Under the pieces are notes generated by a model that worked only from the letters and a program-made list of their open reading frames with translations, had not been told where the DNA came from and ran no database searches. From positions 1-64,000 of the forward strand of contig NZ_BBJR01000037.1 in NCBI RefSeq assembly GCF_000739875.1: 64,000 nucleotides of DNA, read 5' to 3'. The position numbers and the translations under genes are program-made. Origin of the DNA: Comamonas aquatica NBRC 14918 (GTDB lineage Bacteria > Pseudomonadota > Gammaproteobacteria > Burkholderiales > Burkholderiaceae_C). Below, one piece after another: positions 7,975 to 62,703 of this stretch (its first letter is position 1; each line of letters starts with the position of its first letter).

Positions 7975-8381
7975 AAGAGGTTCTCTCAGTGAGTTGCAAC
8001 TGGCCCCGACTGATTGAAAAAACTAATCAGCAGAAGGCAAAGATTTAAATTTGCATAAACTTTAATTTACTTACGCAAAAAAATACAACCATCACCAAGC
8101 CGTTTATCTACGTCACATCCTTTGTCCCGCATGGATGCAGGAAAAATCCTACAAGAACAAAAAAACTATCACCACACAAACTCAATAGCAAAAAAACCAA
8201 GGAAAACATTGTCTTTCTGTTTCCAATAATCTTTTGCACTTCGTTTTTTATAGCAAAAAGCGCTTGCATCAAAAGGAGTTCAACACAAAATATTGTTGAA
8301 AAACTTTAAAAACAAGCGCTTGAAGCTATCATTTTAGGAGTTTGTCGCTAATCAACTTTTTGGGCGACTGTATACAAAAAA
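7975..8381. promoter_or_regulatory. AT-rich 407-bp upstream region of the secretion operon
   Basis: This gap is much more AT-rich than its surroundings, with many A-tracts, unlike the GC-rich genes on both sides. Such DNA is typical of H-NS-like silencer targets and of regulated promoters. It contains a dyad AGGA-AAAA-TCCT (8139-8150) and one copy of the dispersed palindromic repeat (8250-8329). No complete sigma-70 promoter could be assigned with confidence. Confidence 0.5.
8250..8329. repeat. Dispersed palindromic repeat, copy 1
   Basis: The outer arms are ATAGC-AAAA-AGCGCTTG at 8250-8266 and CAAGCGCT-TGA-AGCTAT at 8313-8329, mutual reverse complements apart from spacer bases. It is related to the copies at 11269, 24216, 47093, 48776 and 61410. 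Confidence 0.65.
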
Positions 8382-11268: not shown

Positions 11269-11362
11269 AAAAAAAGCATAGCGACTTGCGCCTGCCAAAC
11301 AATGGTTTTAGACCTCTGTGCAATCCAAACCTTTGTTCAGCGCACGCTGGCAGCTATCTTTT
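11269..11362. repeat. Dispersed palindromic repeat, copy 2, between dgt and aroB
   Basis: The left arm AAAAAAAGCATAGCG-ACTTGCGCCTG (11269-11294) and right arm CGCACGCTGGCAGCTATC (11341-11358) are degenerate reverse complements of each other. The arms match the copy at 24216-24302. The element fills nearly all of the dgt-aroB gap and probably forms a hairpin in the mRNA. Confidence 0.6.
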
Positions 11363-24215: not shown

Positions 24216-24302
24216 TAAGAGCTGCCAGCGCAGGTGCTTGCTTGGTTTCAATACTTAAAGTATTTGAAGTGCTTGTCTATCCTGCGCTGCCAGCTATGCT
24301 TT
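24216..24302. repeat. Dispersed palindromic repeat, copy 3 (best preserved)
   Basis: Left arm AGCTGCCAGCGCAGG (24220-24234) and right arm CCTGCGCTGCCAGCT (24281-24295) are reverse complements at 14 of 15 bases. The centre holds a second dyad, AATACT-TAA-AGTATT (24250-24264). It fills the gap between the SDR stop and the acyl-CoA dehydrogenase start and probably folds in the transcript. Confidence 0.8.
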
Positions 24303-36658: not shown

Positions 36659-37071
36659 GGTGGCAGCCTCCCACCCGTGCCACGCACCACCTCCAGGCAC
36701 GGAGCTCCCTCGGCTAGGTCACACCGCCACATTTCAACCAAAAAGACCTACAACGGGCGTCCAGCCTACGCAGGTTGCTATGCAAAAAAGGCCACATGCG
36801 CGGCCTTGGAGTGGGTGGGAGTAGGACTCCCGCCGAAAGGAGCTGGGTCGGTGCAGACCGCCCCGCTCAGGACGGCCGTTTGCGCCGCTCGTGGCACACC
36901 ACCAAGCCCAGATCTCCCTAGGCCGCCATCACGGCCTTGTTGGGGGGCGACGGCCGTGCACCTGCGCCGCGACCCACTTCCGGACCAGGCACTACATCGA
37001 TGGCGTCACACCGCCCACATTTCAGCCCAAAAGGCCTGCAGCGCCCGTCCAACCTGCGCAGGCTGCTATGC

Positions 37072-37102
37072 AAAAAAAAACAAAGGCCGCATGCGCGGCC
37101 TT
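37072..37102 (-). terminator. Rho-independent terminator after surf1
   Basis: Arms AAGGCCGC and GCGGCCTT (8 bp, 4-base loop) are followed on the minus strand by TGTTTTTTTTT. It closes the cyo-surf1 operon. A weaker duplicate lies in copy A near 36783-36812. Confidence 0.9.
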
Positions 37103-37162
37103 GGAGGGAACGGGGAGCTAGGCTCCCGTCGGAAGGATCCGGGTCGTTCCAGGCCGCCCCAC

Positions 37163-37939
37163 TCAGGACGACCGTTTGCGCCGCTCGTGGCGCACCACCA
37201 GCCAGGCCGCGCCGACCACCATCAGGGCCAGGCCGTACCAGGTCAGCGCATAGACCGCATGGGTGTTGGTGAACTGGATCACCGTCATCCCCGGCCGTGG
37301 CCAGGTGGCCGCCACGGCGGCGCCAGGCAGACCCTGGTCGACAAAGAACGGAGCCACCTGCTGCAGGCCCTTGTCCTGGGCGATCGCCTGCACATCGCGC
37401 GAATGCCAGCGGTCTTCCGCAGGCACGTTGTCCCGCATGAAGCCGCCCTTGGGCTCGGAAAAGCGCAGCAGGCCTTCCACCGTCACGGTCGCGCCCGCAG
37501 CCTCCCGCGGTGCGGCGGCAACCCGGTCCGCGAAGTCCTTGCGCTGCTCCGCAGGCACAAAGCCGCGGTTCACCAGCAACTGGCTGCCGTCGGCCTGCTG
37601 CAGCGGCGTCAGCAGCCAGAAGCCGGCGCCCAGCTCGGTCACGGCCTGGGTCAGCACGCTGCGCCCTTCCATCCACTGGCCCTGGGCCTGCACGGGCAGG
37701 TATTCATGCGTGGACGGCTGCACCTGCGGCCAGGCCGCCGCGGCCGGCACCGGCACGGGGGCGCTGTGCACGCGGGTGTTGACCCGCTCGATCAGGTCCA
37801 GCTTCCAGGCGCGGCGCTGCACCTGCCAGGTGCCCAGGCTGAGGAAGGAAATAAAAAGGGCGATGCCCGCTAGCGCGAGCACCGCCTTCACGAAGGTGGA
37901 GCGAGAGCGCCGGGGCGCCCTCGTGGTGTCAACCGTCAT
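37163..37939 (-). CDS. surf1: SURF1 family oxidase assembly protein
   Basis: 258 residues. Two membrane helices (about 17-37 and 225-247) flank the SURF1 domain. The signatures SLGTWQVQRRAWK, LLVNRGFVP, and the C-terminal NTHAVYALTWYGLALM are present. SURF1 helps insert haem into subunit I of haem-copper oxidases. The start at 37939 is 2 bases after the cyoD stop, so it is the last gene of cyoABCD-surf1. In Paracoccus a dedicated surf1q sits with the ba3 quinol oxidase, a similar arrangement. Confidence 0.93.
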   Translation of the reverse strand: MTVDTTRAPRRSRSTFVKAVLALAGIALFISFLSLGTWQVQRRAWKLDLIERVNTRVHSAPVPVPAAAAWPQVQPSTHEYLPVQAQGQWMEGRSVLTQAVTELGAGFWLLTPLQQADGSQLLVNRGFVPAEQRKDFADRVAAAPREAAGATVTVEGLLRFSEPKGGFMRDNVPAEDRWHSRDVQAIAQDKGLQQVAPFFVDQGLPGAAVAATWPRPGMTVIQFTNTHAVYALTWYGLALMVVGAAWLVVRHERRKRSS

Positions 37940-44057: not shown

Positions 44058-47000
44058 ATGACCCAAGGCCAGATCCGCATCCGTGGCGCACGCCAACACA
44101 ACCTGCAGAACGTGGATGTGGACATCCGCACGGGCGAATTGACCGTCGTCACCGGCCCCAGCGGCTCGGGCAAGTCCAGCCTGGTGTTCGACACCCTGTT
44201 TGCCGAAGGCCAGCGCCGCTACGTGGAAACCTTCAGCGCCTACGCGCGCCAGTTCCTGGACCGCATGGACAAGCCGGCCGTGGACCGCGTCGAAGGCGTG
44301 CCGCCGGCGATTGCCATCGACCAGACCAACCCGGTGCGCAACTCCCGTTCCACCGTGGGCACGATGACGGAGCTCAACGACCACCTCAAGCTGCTGTTCG
44401 CGCGCGCCGCCCACCTGTTCGACCGCCAGACCACCCTGCCCGTGCAGCACGACACGGCCGAGACCATCTTCGCCGCCCTGCAGCAGCGCTGCGAACAGGC
44501 CGGCGACCCACGCATTGCACTGACCTTCCCGGTCGAGCTGCCCGCCAACACCTCGCAGCAAGAAGTGGAGCAATGGCTGTCGGCCAGCGGTTTCACCAAG
44601 GTGCAGGCCGAGCGTGACGTCGAACGTGCCGCCCACGTCGAAGAGCCCGCCAAGGGCAAGAAGGCCAAGGCCGCGCCCCCCGAAAGCATCAAGGTGCTGG
44701 ACGTGGTGGCCGACCGCTTCCGCTTCAGTCGCGTGGAGCGCGCCCGGGCCATGGAGGCCATCGAGGTCGCCCTCAAGCGCGGCAACGGCCACCTGACCGT
44801 GTACGTCATGCCCGAAGCCGGCGAGGCTGAGACGTGGAAGTTCTCGCAGGGCCTGCACTGTCCCGAGAGCAACCTCAGCTACACCGCGCCCATGCCGTCG
44901 CTGTTCTCCTTCAACTCCGCCGTGGGTGCCTGCGACGCCTGCCGGGGTTTTGGCCGCGTGATTGGCGTGGACTGGGGCCTGGTGATTCCCAACGACAAGC
45001 TCACGCTGCGCACCGGGGCCATCAAGCCCATCCAGACGCCCGGCTGGAAGGAGATCCAGGACGACCTGATGCGCCACGCCGAGGCCGAAGGCATCCCGCG
45101 CGACATCGCCTGGAGCAAGCTGACCCCGGAACAGAAGCACTGGGTCATCGAAGGCTCACCGCTGTGGAAAGGCCAGTGGAACAAGCAGTGGTACGGCATC
45201 CGCCGCTTCTTCGAGTACCTGGAAACCAAGACCTACAAGATGCACATCCGCGTGCTGCTGTCCAAGTACCGCAGCTACACGGAATGCCCCACCTGCGCCG
45301 GCGCACGCCTGAAGACCGAAAGCCTGCTGTGGCGCATCGGCAGCAAGGCGCAGGCCGATGCGGTGCTGCCCCCTGCACAACGCTTTATGCCCACCGGTGT
45401 GGCCTGGAGCCGCGCGCAGCTCGAAGCCCTGCCCGGCCTGTGCCTGCACGACCTGATGCGCCTGCCCATCACGCGGCTGCGCAGCTTCTTCGACAGCCTG
45501 CACCTGGGCAACCAGACCGGGCTGGCCGAGGGAGAGCTGCAGGCGCTGAAGCTGCTGAACGAAGAGATCGGCACGCGCCTGAAATATTTGGTGGACGTGG
45601 GCATTGGCTACCTGACGCTGGACCGGCAAAGCCGCACCTTGAGTGGTGGCGAGGTGCAGCGCATCAACCTGACCACCGCGCTGGGCACCAGCCTGGTCAA
45701 CACCCTATTTGTGCTGGACGAGCCCAGCATCGGCCTGCACCCGCGCGACATGGAGCGCATCACCCAGGCCATGCACCGCCTGCGCGATGCCGGCAACACC
45801 CTGGTGGTGGTGGAGCACGACCCGGCCGTGATGTTTGCGGCCGACCGCATGATCGACATGGGCCCGGGCCCCGGTGCCAAGGGTGGGCAGATTGTGTTTG
45901 ACGGCACGCCCGAGGAACTCAAGCGCGCCGACACCCTGACCGGCGCCTACCTGGGCGGGCGCAAGCAGGTGGGCTTTGGCGTCAAGCGCATGGTGACCGA
46001 ATCCACCCCGCGCCTGATTCTGGAAGGCGCGCGCCAGCACAACCTCCAAAATTTGAACGTGGACTTCCCGCTGCAACGCCTGGTCACCATCACCGGCGTG
46101 TCGGGGTCAGGCAAATCCTCGCTGATCCAGGACATCCTGGCCCCGGCCCTGCTGCGCCACTTTGGCAAGCCCACCGACAGCCCCGGCGCGCACGACCGCC
46201 TGCTGGGCGCCGACCACCTGGCTGACGTGGTGTTTGTCGACCAGTCACCCATCGGCAAGACCGCACGCTCCAACCCCGTCTCGTACGTGGGTGCGTGGGA
46301 CAGCATTCGCGAGCTGTTTGCGCTCGCACCGCTGTCGGCCCAGCGCGGCTACACGGCCAGCAAGTTCAGCTTCAACAGCGGCGATGGCCGCTGCCCCACC
46401 TGCGGCGGCTCGGGCTTCGAGCATGTGGAGATGCAGTTCCTGTCCGACGTCTACCTGCGCTGCCCGGACTGCAACGGCAGCCGGTACCGTGCCGAGATTC
46501 TGGAAATCACCCTGGAGCGCGATGGCCGCAGCCTGAACGTGGCCGATGTGCTGGAGCTGACGGTGGCCGAAGCCGCCCAGCTGTTCCGCCAGGATGCCGA
46601 GGTCCTGCGTGCCCTGCAGCCTATCGTCGATGTGGGGCTGGAGTACGTGAAGCTGGGCCAGCCCGTGCCCACGCTGTCGGGCGGCGAAGCCCAGCGACTG
46701 AAGCTGGCGGGCTTTCTGGCCGAGGCGGCCAAGACCGCCTCCAAATCCAAGCAAAAGATTGCGCGCAAGGGCACGCTGTTCCTGTTCGACGAGCCGACCA
46801 CCGGCCTGCACTTTGAAGACATCGCCAAGCTGATGCGCGCGCTGCGCAAGCTGCTGGAGGCGGGCCACAGCCTGATCGTCATCGAGCACAACCTGGACGT
46901 GATCCGCGCCAGCGACTGGCTGATCGACCTAGGCCCCGAAGGGGGCGACGGCGGCGGCCAGATCGTGGCCCAGGGCACGCCCGAGGACGTGCGCCACGTC

Positions 47001-49988
47001 CCCGGATCACACACCGCGCAAGCACTGCGCGAGTACGACCTGGCCATGGGCGTGGGCGGCCAGCTGGTCGAAGAAGTGGCGCCCATGCTCTACAAAAAAG
47101 AGCTGTCAGCGCCCGCCCACAAAGCGCCAGCAGGCAAAAATGCCATTGAAATCGTCAACGCCCGCGAGCACAACCTCAAGGGCCTGAGCGTGGACATTCC
47201 GCGCGGCAAGTTCAATGTGGTGACCGGCGTGTCCGGCTCGGGCAAGTCCACGCTGGCGTTTGACATCCTGTTCAACGAAGGCCAGCGCCGCTACCTGGAA
47301 TCGCTGAACGCTTATGCGCGCTCCATCGTCCAGCCCGCGGGCCGGCCCGAGGTGGATGCCGTCTGGGGCATTCCGCCCACCGTGGCCATCGAGCAGCGCC
47401 TGTCGCGCGGCGGGCGCAAGTCCACCGTGGGCACGACCACCGAGGTCTGGCACTTCCTGCGCCTGCTCTACGTCAAGCTGGGCACACAGCACTGCATCCA
47501 CGACGGCGCCGCCGTGCAGCCGCAAACGCCCGAGCGCATTGCCGCCCAGTTGCTGACCCAGTTCAAGGGCCAGCACATCGGCCTGCTGGCCCCGCTGGTG
47601 GTGCACCGCAAGGGCGTGTACACCGAACTGGCCGACTGGGCCCGCCCCAAGGGCTACACGCACCTGCGCGTGGACGGCGCCTTCCTGCCCACCACGGGCT
47701 TCCCGCGCCTGGACCGCTTCAAGGAACACACCCTCGAGCTGCCCGTGGCCAGCGTCAAGGTCACGGCGGCCAACGAAAAAGAGCTGCGCGCGCAGTTGGC
47801 CAAGACGCTGGAGATCGGCAAGGGCGTGGTCCATGTGCTGTCCGGCATCGACACCCTGGAGGCCGCCATCGCCGCCCCCGGCCAAGGCCTGGGCGTGGGC
47901 ACGCTGCAGGTGTTCTCTACCCAGCGCGCCTGCCCGGTCTGCGCCACCAGCTATGCCGAGCTGGAGCCCAGCCTGTTCAGCTACAACAGCAAGCACGGCT
48001 GGTGCCCCGACTGCGTGGGCACGGGCGTGAAGCTGACCAAGGAGCAGCGCAAGGTCTACGACGACAGCACGCTGGCCGAAGACAACCGCGGCCGCGAACT
48101 GACGCTGACCGCCAACGAAGTCGAAGACCTGGAGGAATGCACCTGCCCGACCTGCGAGGGCACACGCCTGAACGCCCGCGCCCGCGCGGTGCGCTTCCAC
48201 GGCAAAACCATCACCGAGCTGGCCCACCTGTCGGTCAGCGCGCTGCGCCAGTGGTTCCAGGAACTGACGACGACCGGCCGCGAAACCGACATCGCGCGCG
48301 ACCTGCTGCCGGAAATCCTGGGCCGCCTGGAATTCCTGGAAGAAGTCGGGCTGAACTACCTGACCCTGGACCGGGGCGCGCCCACGCTGTCCGGTGGTGA
48401 GGCGCAGCGCATCCGCCTGGCGGCGCAGCTGGGCAGCAACCTGCAGGGCGTGTGCTATGTACTGGACGAACCCACCATCGGCCTGCATGCGCGCGACAAC
48501 CACATCCTGCTCAACGCCCTGCACAAGCTGGGCGACAAGGGCAACACCCTGGTGGTGGTGGAGCACGACGAAGACACCATCCGCCGGGCCGACCATGTGA
48601 TCGACATCGGCCCCAGCGCCGGCAAGCGCGGTGGCCAGCTGGTGGCTCAGGGCACGCCGGCCGACATCATGGCCGCCGCCGATTCGCAAACCGGCCGCTA
48701 CCTGCTGCACGCCATGCGCCACCCCTACCAGGCGCGCCGTGCAGTGCATGGCGTGGCGGATGCAGCCGCTATCCAATCAGAAGCTGCCAGCGCAGATGCA
48801 GCCAGCGCAAAACCCAAAAACCGCACCAAAAAGCAGATCGCAGCCGATGCGGCCGCCGCCTTGGCTGCCGACAGCGCGGCCCTGAATGCCGAACTGGCCA
48901 ACCCCCGCAAAGCCACCGGCCCGCTGCACTGGCTGGTGGTGAATGGCGCGAACCTGCACAACCTGCAGGACATCGAGGCCAGCGTGCCCCTCCAGCGTCT
49001 GGTGGCCATCACCGGCGTGTCCGGCTCCGGCAAATCCACGCTGGCGCGCGATGTGCTGCTGACCAATGTGGCCGACCTCGTCAGCCAGCGCGCCACCAAG
49101 GCAGGCCGCGAAGCGGCACAAGCGGGCCAGACGCCAACGCTGGTCGGCTGTGAAGCCGTCTGGGGCACGGAAGCCATCGACCGCGTGCTGGAGGTGGACC
49201 AGACGCCGATCGGCAAGACCCCGCGCAGCTGCCCCGCCACCTACATCGGTTTCTGGGACACCATCCGCAAGCTGTTTGCCGATACTTTGGAGGCCAAGGC
49301 CCGTGGTTACGGCGCGGGGCGCTTCAGTTTCAATACCGGCGAAGGCCGCTGCCCGGCCTGTGAAGGCCAGGGCATGCGCACCATCGAGATGAGCTTCCTG
49401 CCCGATGTGAAGGTGCCCTGCGAAACCTGCCACGGCGCGCGCTTCAACCCCGAGACGCTGGCCGTCACCTGGCGCGGCAAGAGCATTGGCGATGTGCTGC
49501 AGATGGAGGTGGACGAGGCCGTGGAGTTCTTTGCCTCCATGCCCAGCATCGCCCACCCGCTGCAGCTGCTCAAGGACGTGGGCCTGGGCTATCTGACGCT
49601 GGGCCAGCCCTCGCCCACGCTGAGCGGCGGCGAGGCCCAGCGCATCAAGCTGGTGACCGAGCTGACCAAGGTGCGCGACGACATCACCAAGCGCGGCAAC
49701 AAGGCGCCCCACACCCTGTACGTGCTGGATGAGCCCACGTTGGGCCTGCACATGGCCGACGTGGACAAGCTGATCCGCGTGCTGCACCGCCTGGTGGACG
49801 GCGGCCACAGCGTGATCGTCATCGAGCACGACCTGGACGTCATCGCCGAGGCCGACTGGATCATCGACCTGGGCCCCGAAGGCGGCAGCGGTGGTGGCCG
49901 CATCGTGGCCGCTGGCACCCCCGAAGAGGTGGTGGCCTTGGGCACGCACACCGGGCAAGCAATACAGTCAGTGCTTGCACGCACTTAA
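44058..49988 (+). CDS. uvrA: Double-length UvrA (two UvrA copies in one protein)
   Basis: 1976 residues, about twice normal UvrA, with four ABC ATPase cassettes. Copy 1 (about 1-1010) and copy 2 (about 1028-1976) each have two Walker A loops ([27 protein letters not shown] twice), LSGGE signatures and [16 protein letters not shown]-type Walker B boxes. Copy 2 has both zinc fingers intact (CPVC/CPDC and CPAC/CETC). Copy 1 keeps the second (CPTC/CPDC) but in the first only one Cys (268) stands where CxxC is expected, before CDAC at 291-294. UvrA finds bulky DNA damage as a dimer; here one chain could act as the dimer. The linkers at 1012-1028 and about 1573-1588 match the dispersed repeat. The usual UvrA partner ssb is not adjacent, so this may be a paralogue beside a standard UvrA. 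Confidence 0.93.
47093..47142 (+). repeat. Dispersed repeat-like segment encoding the linker between the two UvrA copies
   Basis: AAAAAAGAGCTGTCAGCGCC, then a short centre and AAAGCGCCAGCAGGCAAAAA: the arms and the flanking A-runs match the layout of the intergenic copies at 61410 and 24216, but the match is degenerate. In frame it gives [16 protein letters not shown]. Confidence 0.5.
48776..48812 (+). repeat. Dispersed repeat arm inside uvrA (linker before the last ATPase domain)
   Basis: AGCTGCCAGCGCAGATGC (48782-48799) matches AGCTGCCAGCGCAGGTGC of the intergenic copy at 24220-24237 at 17 of 18 bases. It encodes an Ala/Ser-rich linker, [10 protein letters not shown]. Confidence 0.6.
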
Positions 49989-51790: not shown

Positions 51791-51872
51791 TCAGGAGCAG
51801 TTACCGCTTGTCCTGGCTGAATTTCAGAAGCTTTTCAGTTGAAAACTGAGTAACAACGCGTGCCAAACGCTC

Positions 51873-61409: not shown

Positions 61410-61455
61410 ATCCATAGCTAACAGCGCTTGACCAGCAAGCGCCAGAGCCCAAAAT
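61410..61455. repeat. Dispersed palindromic repeat, copy between phoH and ybeY
   Basis: ATAGCTAACAGCGCTTG (61414-61430), ACCAG, then CAAGCGCCAGAGCCC (61436-61450). The inner arms AGCGCTTG and CAAGCGCC pair. The first bases of the ybeY ATG (61454) lie at its edge. Confidence 0.65.
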
Positions 61456-61915
61456 GGCACTCAACAACCTGTCCCTCTCCCTGCAATTCGGCCAGTTCGA
61501 CAACCTGGCCGCGCACCGCGCCCTGCTGACCCGCGCGCGCGTCACCAAGTGGATCAAGCACGCCCTGGCCGTGGATGCGGAGATGGCCGTGCGCATCGTC
61601 GGCGAGGACGAAGGCCGCCAGCTGAACGCCCAGTTCCGCAAGAAGGACTACGCCACCAACGTGCTGACCTTCGACTACCAGCAGGCCCCCACGGTGATGG
61701 CCGACCTGGTGATCTGCGGCCCGGTGATCGAACGCGAGGCCCAGGAGCAGAACAAGTCGCTGGAAGAGCACTACGCCCACATGCTGGTGCACGGCACCCT
61801 GCACGCCCAGGGCTGGGACCACGAGACCAGCGAGGAGGACGCCGACGAGATGGAGGCCTACGAGACCGACATCCTGGCCGAACTGGGCTACGCCGACCCC
61901 TACGCCAAGGACTGA
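61454..61915 (+). CDS. ybeY: Endoribonuclease YbeY
   Basis: 153 residues. The zinc motif H-x3-H-x5-H reads [13 protein letters not shown] near residue 115, with the usual [13 protein letters not shown] upstream. It matures 16S rRNA 3' ends and takes part in ribosome quality control. It is in an operon with phoH and ends in a strong terminator. Confidence 0.97.
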
Positions 61916-62605: not shown

Positions 62606-62703
62606 GGCTGCTCACTCCATCGTCCGTCCCGTGCCAGACCGGGCCTCTGCACATGAAAAAGGCCTGCAGCCCAATCGCTACCTGCGCGGGCCGCTCTGGT
62701 TTT

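Follow-up and report, generated by a model that had tools for sequence, protein, structure and literature searches.

Dispersed palindromic repeats lie in frame in the linkers of a double UvrA protein of Comamonas and related genera

Results

A double UvrA with repeat-like DNA in two linkers

We analysed a 64,000-nt stretch of Comamonas aquatica NBRC 14918 (contig NZ_BBJR01000037.1, positions 1 to 64,000; hereafter the window), which carries on its forward strand an open reading frame for two UvrA copies in one chain. Two linkers of this protein are encoded by DNA that resembles a palindrome also present outside uvrA. The features concerned are the following (R1 and R2, covariance models of the 76-nt and 35-nt forms of the palindrome):

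44058–49988, + strand: double UvrA, 1976 aa, two UvrA copies in one chain (open reading frame and NCBIfam profiles)
47095–47144, + strand: linker 1, a 35-nt element with flanks, in frame, between the UvrA copies (R2, 16.1 bits; weight matrix, 25.1 bits)
47101–47112, + strand: 5′ arm of linker 1, AGCTGTCAGCGC, read in the sequence
47124–47135, + strand: 3′ arm of linker 1, GCGCCAGCAGGC, at the arm offset (23) of the dispersed 35-nt form
48764–48799, + strand: linker 2, the probable remnant of a 76-nt element, consisting of the 5′ flank (with GCTATCCAATCAGA) and the 5′ arm; the original would have spanned 48782–48857 (match to 24220–24237, relatives and tree)
24220–24295, + strand: complete 76-nt copy outside uvrA (R1, 59.3 bits; one of the training copies of R1)
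8252–8327, + strand: second 76-nt copy (R1, 43.4 bits)
11280–11355, − strand: third 76-nt copy (R1, 30.4 bits)

The protein scores above the cut-offs of the NCBIfam UvrA profiles PRK00349 (1954 bits) and TIGR00630 (1927 bits). A further UvrA model, PRK00635 (1809 positions), which we take to describe a double UvrA of chlamydiae, is roughly as long as two UvrA copies joined together, but our protein reaches only 1138.9 against its cut-off of 3054. Among named records, the closest one found belongs to Comamonas avium, at 92% in the best segment with a query of 949 residues.

A uvrA region was found in all 53 genomes of the genus, with both linkers covered in 50. In a family sample of one genome per genus, our own included, the uvrA query matched 120 of 120 genomes (genomes are numbered G, the C. 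aquatica genome being G000, and loci L); the open frames are mostly about 1900–2100 aa long, and in six genomes (G109, G126, G136, G142, G145 and G154) the matches listed are weak or short only. The uvrA gene was read in 109 other genera (29 loci from the family search plus 80 fetched), 10 genera of the 120 being left out. In one draft genome (G103, L272), linker 2 contains a stop codon in the frame read.

A 76/35-nt palindrome is dispersed in the Comamonas genome

The palindrome has two forms of strict length. The 76-nt form has its second arm at offset 64 and contains an inner hairpin; in the 35-nt form, the offset of the second arm is 23. Its arm AGCTGCCAGCGC was found with at most one mismatch at 355 sites of the 3.73-Mb C. 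aquatica genome, compared with 41 for the reversed pattern. For the longer form, alignment A1 comprises 24 copies (14 from this genome and 10 from four relatives) out of 29 candidates, with the omission of L084, L087, L096 and L109, which are in long open reading frames, and of L015, which is off-centre. A1 is gapless and 83.2% of its cells pair, against at most 45% in slid controls; its covariation is 0.268 versus 0.145 when shuffled (0/500) and at most 0.109 in slid controls. The model R1 derived from it recognizes at least 85 places in the C. aquatica genome, nearly all of exactly 76 nt, a lower bound because 150 of 2197 candidates were scored. The shorter form is represented by alignment A2 and model R2, with 27 copies from 30 loci (L296, L304 and L315 omitted); its copy numbers are 40 in our genome, 43 in G013, 176 in G062, 113 in G056, 217 in G124 and 24 in G147, with controls of 0 in all six. 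The copies thus share exact length, arm spacing, palindromic structure and dispersal, and the element is an imperfect 76-nt hairpin with a 35-nt short form that encodes nothing itself.

The two bases preceding AGCTG are AT in 21 of the 27 copies of A2 and GT in one, which does not fit the GTAG REP superfamily, and by eye no CGTC motif stands out at either end of the palindrome in A1 or A2. No match to the Y1 tyrosine transposase profile PF01797 was found in our genome, so that the palindrome does not qualify there as a RAYT-mobilised REP. Rfam at the gathering threshold gave no match in the window and, in seven loci, only sub-threshold miRNA-like hairpins.

Within the window, a further, weak 76-nt copy was noted at 51796–51871 (R1, 17.1 bits), and R2 gave matches resembling the 35-nt form at 61410–61458 (21.5 bits), 62653–62701 (32.1 bits) and 37025–37073 (28.9 bits). 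Two adjacent blocks, 36727–36904 and 37015–37200 (repeat families D14 and D17), are repeats of each other at 84% identity, 288–296 nt apart.

Linker 1 resembles a diverged 35-nt copy

An initial annotation of this DNA, made without database searches, had noted arms and flanking A-runs like those of intergenic repeat copies where the two UvrA copies join (47093–47142). Both arms are present, spaced as in the 35-nt form and bordered on their outer sides by A-runs. R2 places the element at 47095–47144 with E 0.0047 in the window. An ungapped weight matrix gives 25.1 bits for 47101–47135, whereas 50 uvrA open reading frames, with 359,760 other positions, yield a maximum of 16.4 bits, and R2 and the matrix were trained on 27 copies of which none is present in the uvrA loci read. 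For the linkers 1 of our genome, G013 and G004, none of 2000 dinucleotide shuffles scored as high in each case. Note that R2 also finds a chance-like match of up to 14.6 bits at one fixed non-linker place of many uvrA genes. With these scores, linker 1 belongs to the 76/35-nt family and resembles a diverged 35-nt copy; conserved E-A-K-N codons adjoining it could be the source of part of the similarity.

In relatives, linker 1 scores 20.0 (G013), 24.5 (G124) and 36.6 bits (G062) with R2, and 36.7 (G013), 24.7 (G004), 43.2 (G062) and 28.2 bits (G124) with the weight matrix. Named relatives with the 35-nt form at this place include Diaphorobacter nitroreducens (36.6 bits) and Acidovorax defluvii (33.1 bits). 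The arms are retained differently, the 5′ arm being better preserved in our genome and the 3′ arm in G013. Linker 1 of G137 (17.8 bits) is barely above background and was not counted.

Linker 2 is most simply read as the eroded remnant of a 76-nt element

The match of 48782–48799 to the intergenic copy at 24220–24237, which the same annotation had reported at 17 of 18 bases, is confirmed, and these two segments are the only mismatch-free fits to the pattern in the window. When three mismatches are allowed, the pattern occurs five times in the window against a mean of 4.09, with 43 of 100 shuffles as high, i.e. with no enrichment. R1 finds neither of the two linkers in the window even at E 10, and the best 76-nt matrix score within this uvrA reading frame is 6.2, linker 2 having one arm only. 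The proposed profile scan of uvrA thus succeeds for linker 1 with the short form and fails for both linkers with R1; taken alone, the 76-nt model would count against the finding, since it has no match in these linkers. Linker 2 of C. aquatica is not a complete copy of the family and is recognized as a remnant by orthology only.

In the genus, a complete 76-nt element (E < 1e-3; up to 56.2 bits) lies exactly at linker 2 and in frame in 17 of 50 uvrA loci. It measures 76 nt, or 73 on some reverse strands, and other matches in those loci do not exceed 16.7 bits. At least 17 of the 24 arm bases are found at linker 2 in 23 of 50 loci, all in one codon phase, compared with 16 in our genome and at most 15 in the other 26. 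In G047, G030 and others, the complete element occupies the same flank, frame and position as our remnant; the flank GCTATNNAANNNGAAGCT is common to C. aquatica, G034 and G047, and the linkers 2 of relatives contain both arms and the inner hairpin in the exact 76-nt register. The idea that the repeat had entered the linkers with the frame kept open is borne out by relatives whose linker 2 holds a whole 76-nt element or whose linker 1 holds the 35-nt form. The element is also missing from some relatives, a check that had been proposed, and the complete form is absent from whole clades.

In a quick tree of 58 UvrA cores (without G124 and G070, whose cores were not cut by the pattern), the complete element needs three changes within the genus, and the clade of C. 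aquatica is sister (SH-aLRT 94) to G030, G037, G039 and G008, which bear it. Over the middle 52 nt, copies of separate clades agree at up to 0.73, compared with a mean of 0.51 and a 99th percentile of 0.67 for non-coding pairs. Together, the tree and this agreement suggest, as the simplest reading, that linker 2 of C. aquatica is the eroded remnant of an insertion older than its own clade; alternatively, insertion may have been repeated at this one place.

Outside the genus, the 76-nt element is found in linker 2 of G147 (65.1 bits) and G124 (39.7 bits); with a middle identity of 0.44–0.69, these copies are compatible with orthologous or independent origin. Linker 2 of G062 contains the 35-nt form (R2, 41.4 bits). 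Two candidates were not counted: G056, where the 35-nt form had been seen by eye (no R2 match; matrix 12.4 bits, within background), and G067 (18.4 bits, barely above background).

The 76-nt element lies in the same frame in four other proteins

In C. aquatica, none of the 62 R1 copies examined (of at least 85) is in a coding frame, and insertions in genes are therefore rare. In G030, at least 3 of the 58 R1 copies examined are in coding frames, among the matches listed, which do not contain the uvrA copy of this genome. The element lies between the lipoyl and E3-binding domains of the E2 acyltransferase, where it is common to four of five close orthologues, between the Hpt and dimerisation domains of CheA, and inside DUF3418 of an HrpA-like protein (L109/L551, L542 and L547 for E2, CheA and HrpA-like). 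It is also found between the two domains of a fused protein, presumably PxpB-PxpC, as we named it from its two carboxyltransferase domains (L414 and others), in 18 of 30 Comamonas loci with up to 23 of 24 arm bases. Of 16 further such loci, one has 17 arm bases and the rest fewer, and a fused PxpB-PxpC that lacks the element is found in G001, G002, G031, G032, G051, G052 and G000. L096 (G047) was rejected as a coding copy, its upstream flank not being coding-like.

The 76-nt copies in all five proteins (UvrA, E2, PxpB-PxpC, CheA and HrpA-like) use the A|GCT GCT AGC frame. Among 117 non-coding 76-nt copies, the next frame is open in 64 and the A|GCT GCT AGC frame in 50. Only the 76-nt form is tied to one frame in this way, because the short copy in linker 1 of C. 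aquatica is read in the AG CTG TCA frame. Hairpin pairing amounts to 67.4% of cells in coding copies, versus 83.2% in non-coding ones. Pairing in coding copies exceeds that of shuffles (0/500) by 3 points only, with relatedness uncontrolled, and we make no claim of selection at the RNA level.

Unrelated repeats occupy the same UvrA loops in other genera

An identified dispersed palindrome lies in at least one UvrA linker in 20 of the 110 genera read: type B in 10, type C in 6, and the 76/35-nt family in G124, G147, G062 and our own genus. Linker 1 could be delimited in 94 of the 109 other genera and contains an identified repeat in 10 of these, to which G058, not delimited in that count, is added.

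Type B (AATTGGGGTC..) gave 33 half-site matches, 32 of them in linker 1 or 2 of 10 genera (with the linkers of G116 and G058 re-delimited), and 0 in the reversed control. It is dispersed in the five of its genomes counted (5 to 26 sites, controls 0); elsewhere, G000 and G166 have one site each and G068 none. In G139, G161, G113 and G122 it flanks Y1_Tnp genes on both sides; being dispersed and flanking such genes, type B is a RAYT-type REP. In G102, G122, G116 and G087, two inverted type-B units 60 nt apart make up 81 nt, i.e. 27 codons. Linker 1 of G058 (L275) shows four type-B half-site matches, consistent with two dimers in a row, and in G081 (L270) a type-B half site lies in a UvrA loop outside both linkers.

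Type C (CCCTCACCCC..CCCTCTCCC) is found in linkers of six genera and is dispersed in their genomes, with 16 to 84 sites against 0 to 5 in controls (two mismatches; 0 to 3 per strand and genome). Linker 1 of G152 carries it with 24-bp arms; in G068 it is dispersed (8 sites), yet none lies in the linkers. A count of CCCTCACCCC at three mismatches was discarded in favour of the two-mismatch count and the reading of linkers, as its reversed control also matched in five of these genera, the tract being similar to itself when reversed. Likewise, a loose 35-nt pattern (six mismatches) was kept out of the counts because it matched 24 places outside linkers, and 14 in the reversed control.

The 79 named UvrA loci, i.e. 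those reaching the first UvrA copy (L413 has no anchor), contain 68 type-B or type-C sites, 24 of them in linkers, or 26 with two just before linker 1. Since most of the others cluster in loops near residues 240, 480 and 820, the landing places are several UvrA loops, not the junction alone.

Discussion

The coding copies described here lie in frame, mostly between domains, and show erosion. We consider it likely, with a probability of about 0.85, that both linkers of the C. aquatica UvrA contain old in-frame insertions of the dispersed palindrome, kept where linker loops tolerate them; we infer that the copies arrived by insertion and have persisted because they are tolerated, not because they are selected. 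In such a scheme, palindrome copies would strike genes as well as spacers and nearly all insertions in genes would be lost. The survivors would be those whose net insert keeps the frame and reads stop-free as an Ala/Ser/Lys-rich peptide, and would fall in loops between folded domains, where length and sequence may be of little matter. With several loops that would be tolerant, UvrA could have let unrelated repeats (the RAYT-associated REP and the CCCTCACCCC/CCCTCTCCC REP) settle there in other genera. An inserted copy would then drift as coding sequence and lose its hairpin.

Selection on the inserts, with UvrA and other repair genes as preferred targets and inserts that tune repair, is an unlikely explanation, although a tuning of repair by intragenic REPs has been speculated (PMC3733652). 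Three unrelated families do share the same UvrA loops, and REPs have been placed in uvrA elsewhere too: Thioalkalivibrio uvrA has two REP dimers, and each of the two uvrA genes of Opitutus terrae has double REP insertions (PMC3733652, 2013). However, the Comamonas element is also present in metabolic and signalling proteins, its complete form is missing in whole clades, and hairpin pairing decays in coding copies. For this last reason the word "domesticated", used in the initial annotation, finds no support if it is meant as a selected function.

It is very improbable that the resemblance is fortuitous, i.e. that Ala/Ser/Lys-rich linkers of high GC content simply use GCT GCC AGC GC-like codons in which arms were found post hoc. 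The lack of enrichment of the loose pattern in the window, the 14.6-bit R2 match at a fixed non-linker place and the single arm of linker 2 would fit such an account, but linker 1 is unmatched by its 2000 shuffles and by 359,760 positions, and the linkers 2 of relatives keep both arms and the inner hairpin in register. The suggestion that the two uvrA genes were fused by or through the repeat is unsupported and very improbable: linker 1 with its short copy does lie exactly at the junction of the UvrA copies, as the 76-nt element does at that of PxpB-PxpC, but the double UvrA runs throughout the family sample, no identified repeat lies at the junction in 84 of the 94 genera whose linker 1 was delimited, and PxpB-PxpC is fused whether or not the element is there.

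The most likely role of the inserts is that of a neutral, harmless spacer peptide. A broader proposal is possible, and we offer it tentatively: in Comamonas, the 76-nt palindrome might be a linker-seeding element, fixed several times between folded domains of multidomain proteins and always in the frame whose peptide is rich in Ala and Ser and probably disordered. Elements of this sort, unrelated in origin, might in UvrA rank among the main sources of new linker sequence between domains throughout a bacterial family.

Palindromic elements of Rickettsia were reportedly described by Ogata in 2000 and 2002. These elements are reported to be inserted in frame in unrelated proteins and also to lie between genes (PMC10969869, PMC2229807, PMC3733652), like the Comamonas palindrome; they belong to another bacterial class and are longer (105–146 or ~150 bp versus 76 and 35 nt), a comparison made by description only. 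The intragenic REPs of PMC3733652 are likewise dispersed palindromes in genes including uvrA, argued to be in flexible linkers or loops, and are tagged by GTAG/CGTC, whereas the main family here, the 76/35-nt palindrome, lacks the GTAG tag. In addition, we trace orthologous copies across a genus, and in 20 of the 110 genera read, members of three unrelated families share these loops. RAYT-associated REPs resemble type B of related genera, which flanks Y1_Tnp genes (G139, G161, G113, G122), and differ from the 76/35-nt family, to which no Y1_Tnp gene is tied, our genome being without a Y1_Tnp match. In-frame palindromic insertions are thus already known, from the Rickettsia elements and the uvrA REPs of Opitutus and Thioalkalivibrio, and the UvrA linkers are a variant of that kind, recurring in one protein across many genera. 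Searches of one open-access library and of Rfam returned no description of the 76/35-nt family, and those of the library neither its orthologous coding copies through a genus nor a case in which unrelated families repeatedly use the same loops of UvrA.

Across dozens of species, one and the same linker site is found complete, eroded or empty, a dense natural series that lets the fate of selfish DNA within a protein be traced stepwise and opens the question of whether repair proteins are preferred targets or merely have roomy loops. When peptides like EAASA..AQAA, LGSDPNF and PHPNPLP turn up as linkers of predicted proteins, they may be translated repeat DNA, and call for caution. As a separate observation, linker 1 of G138 (L258) contains a different repeat-like tract, GCGTTGGGCGTTG, in inverted copies and in frame.
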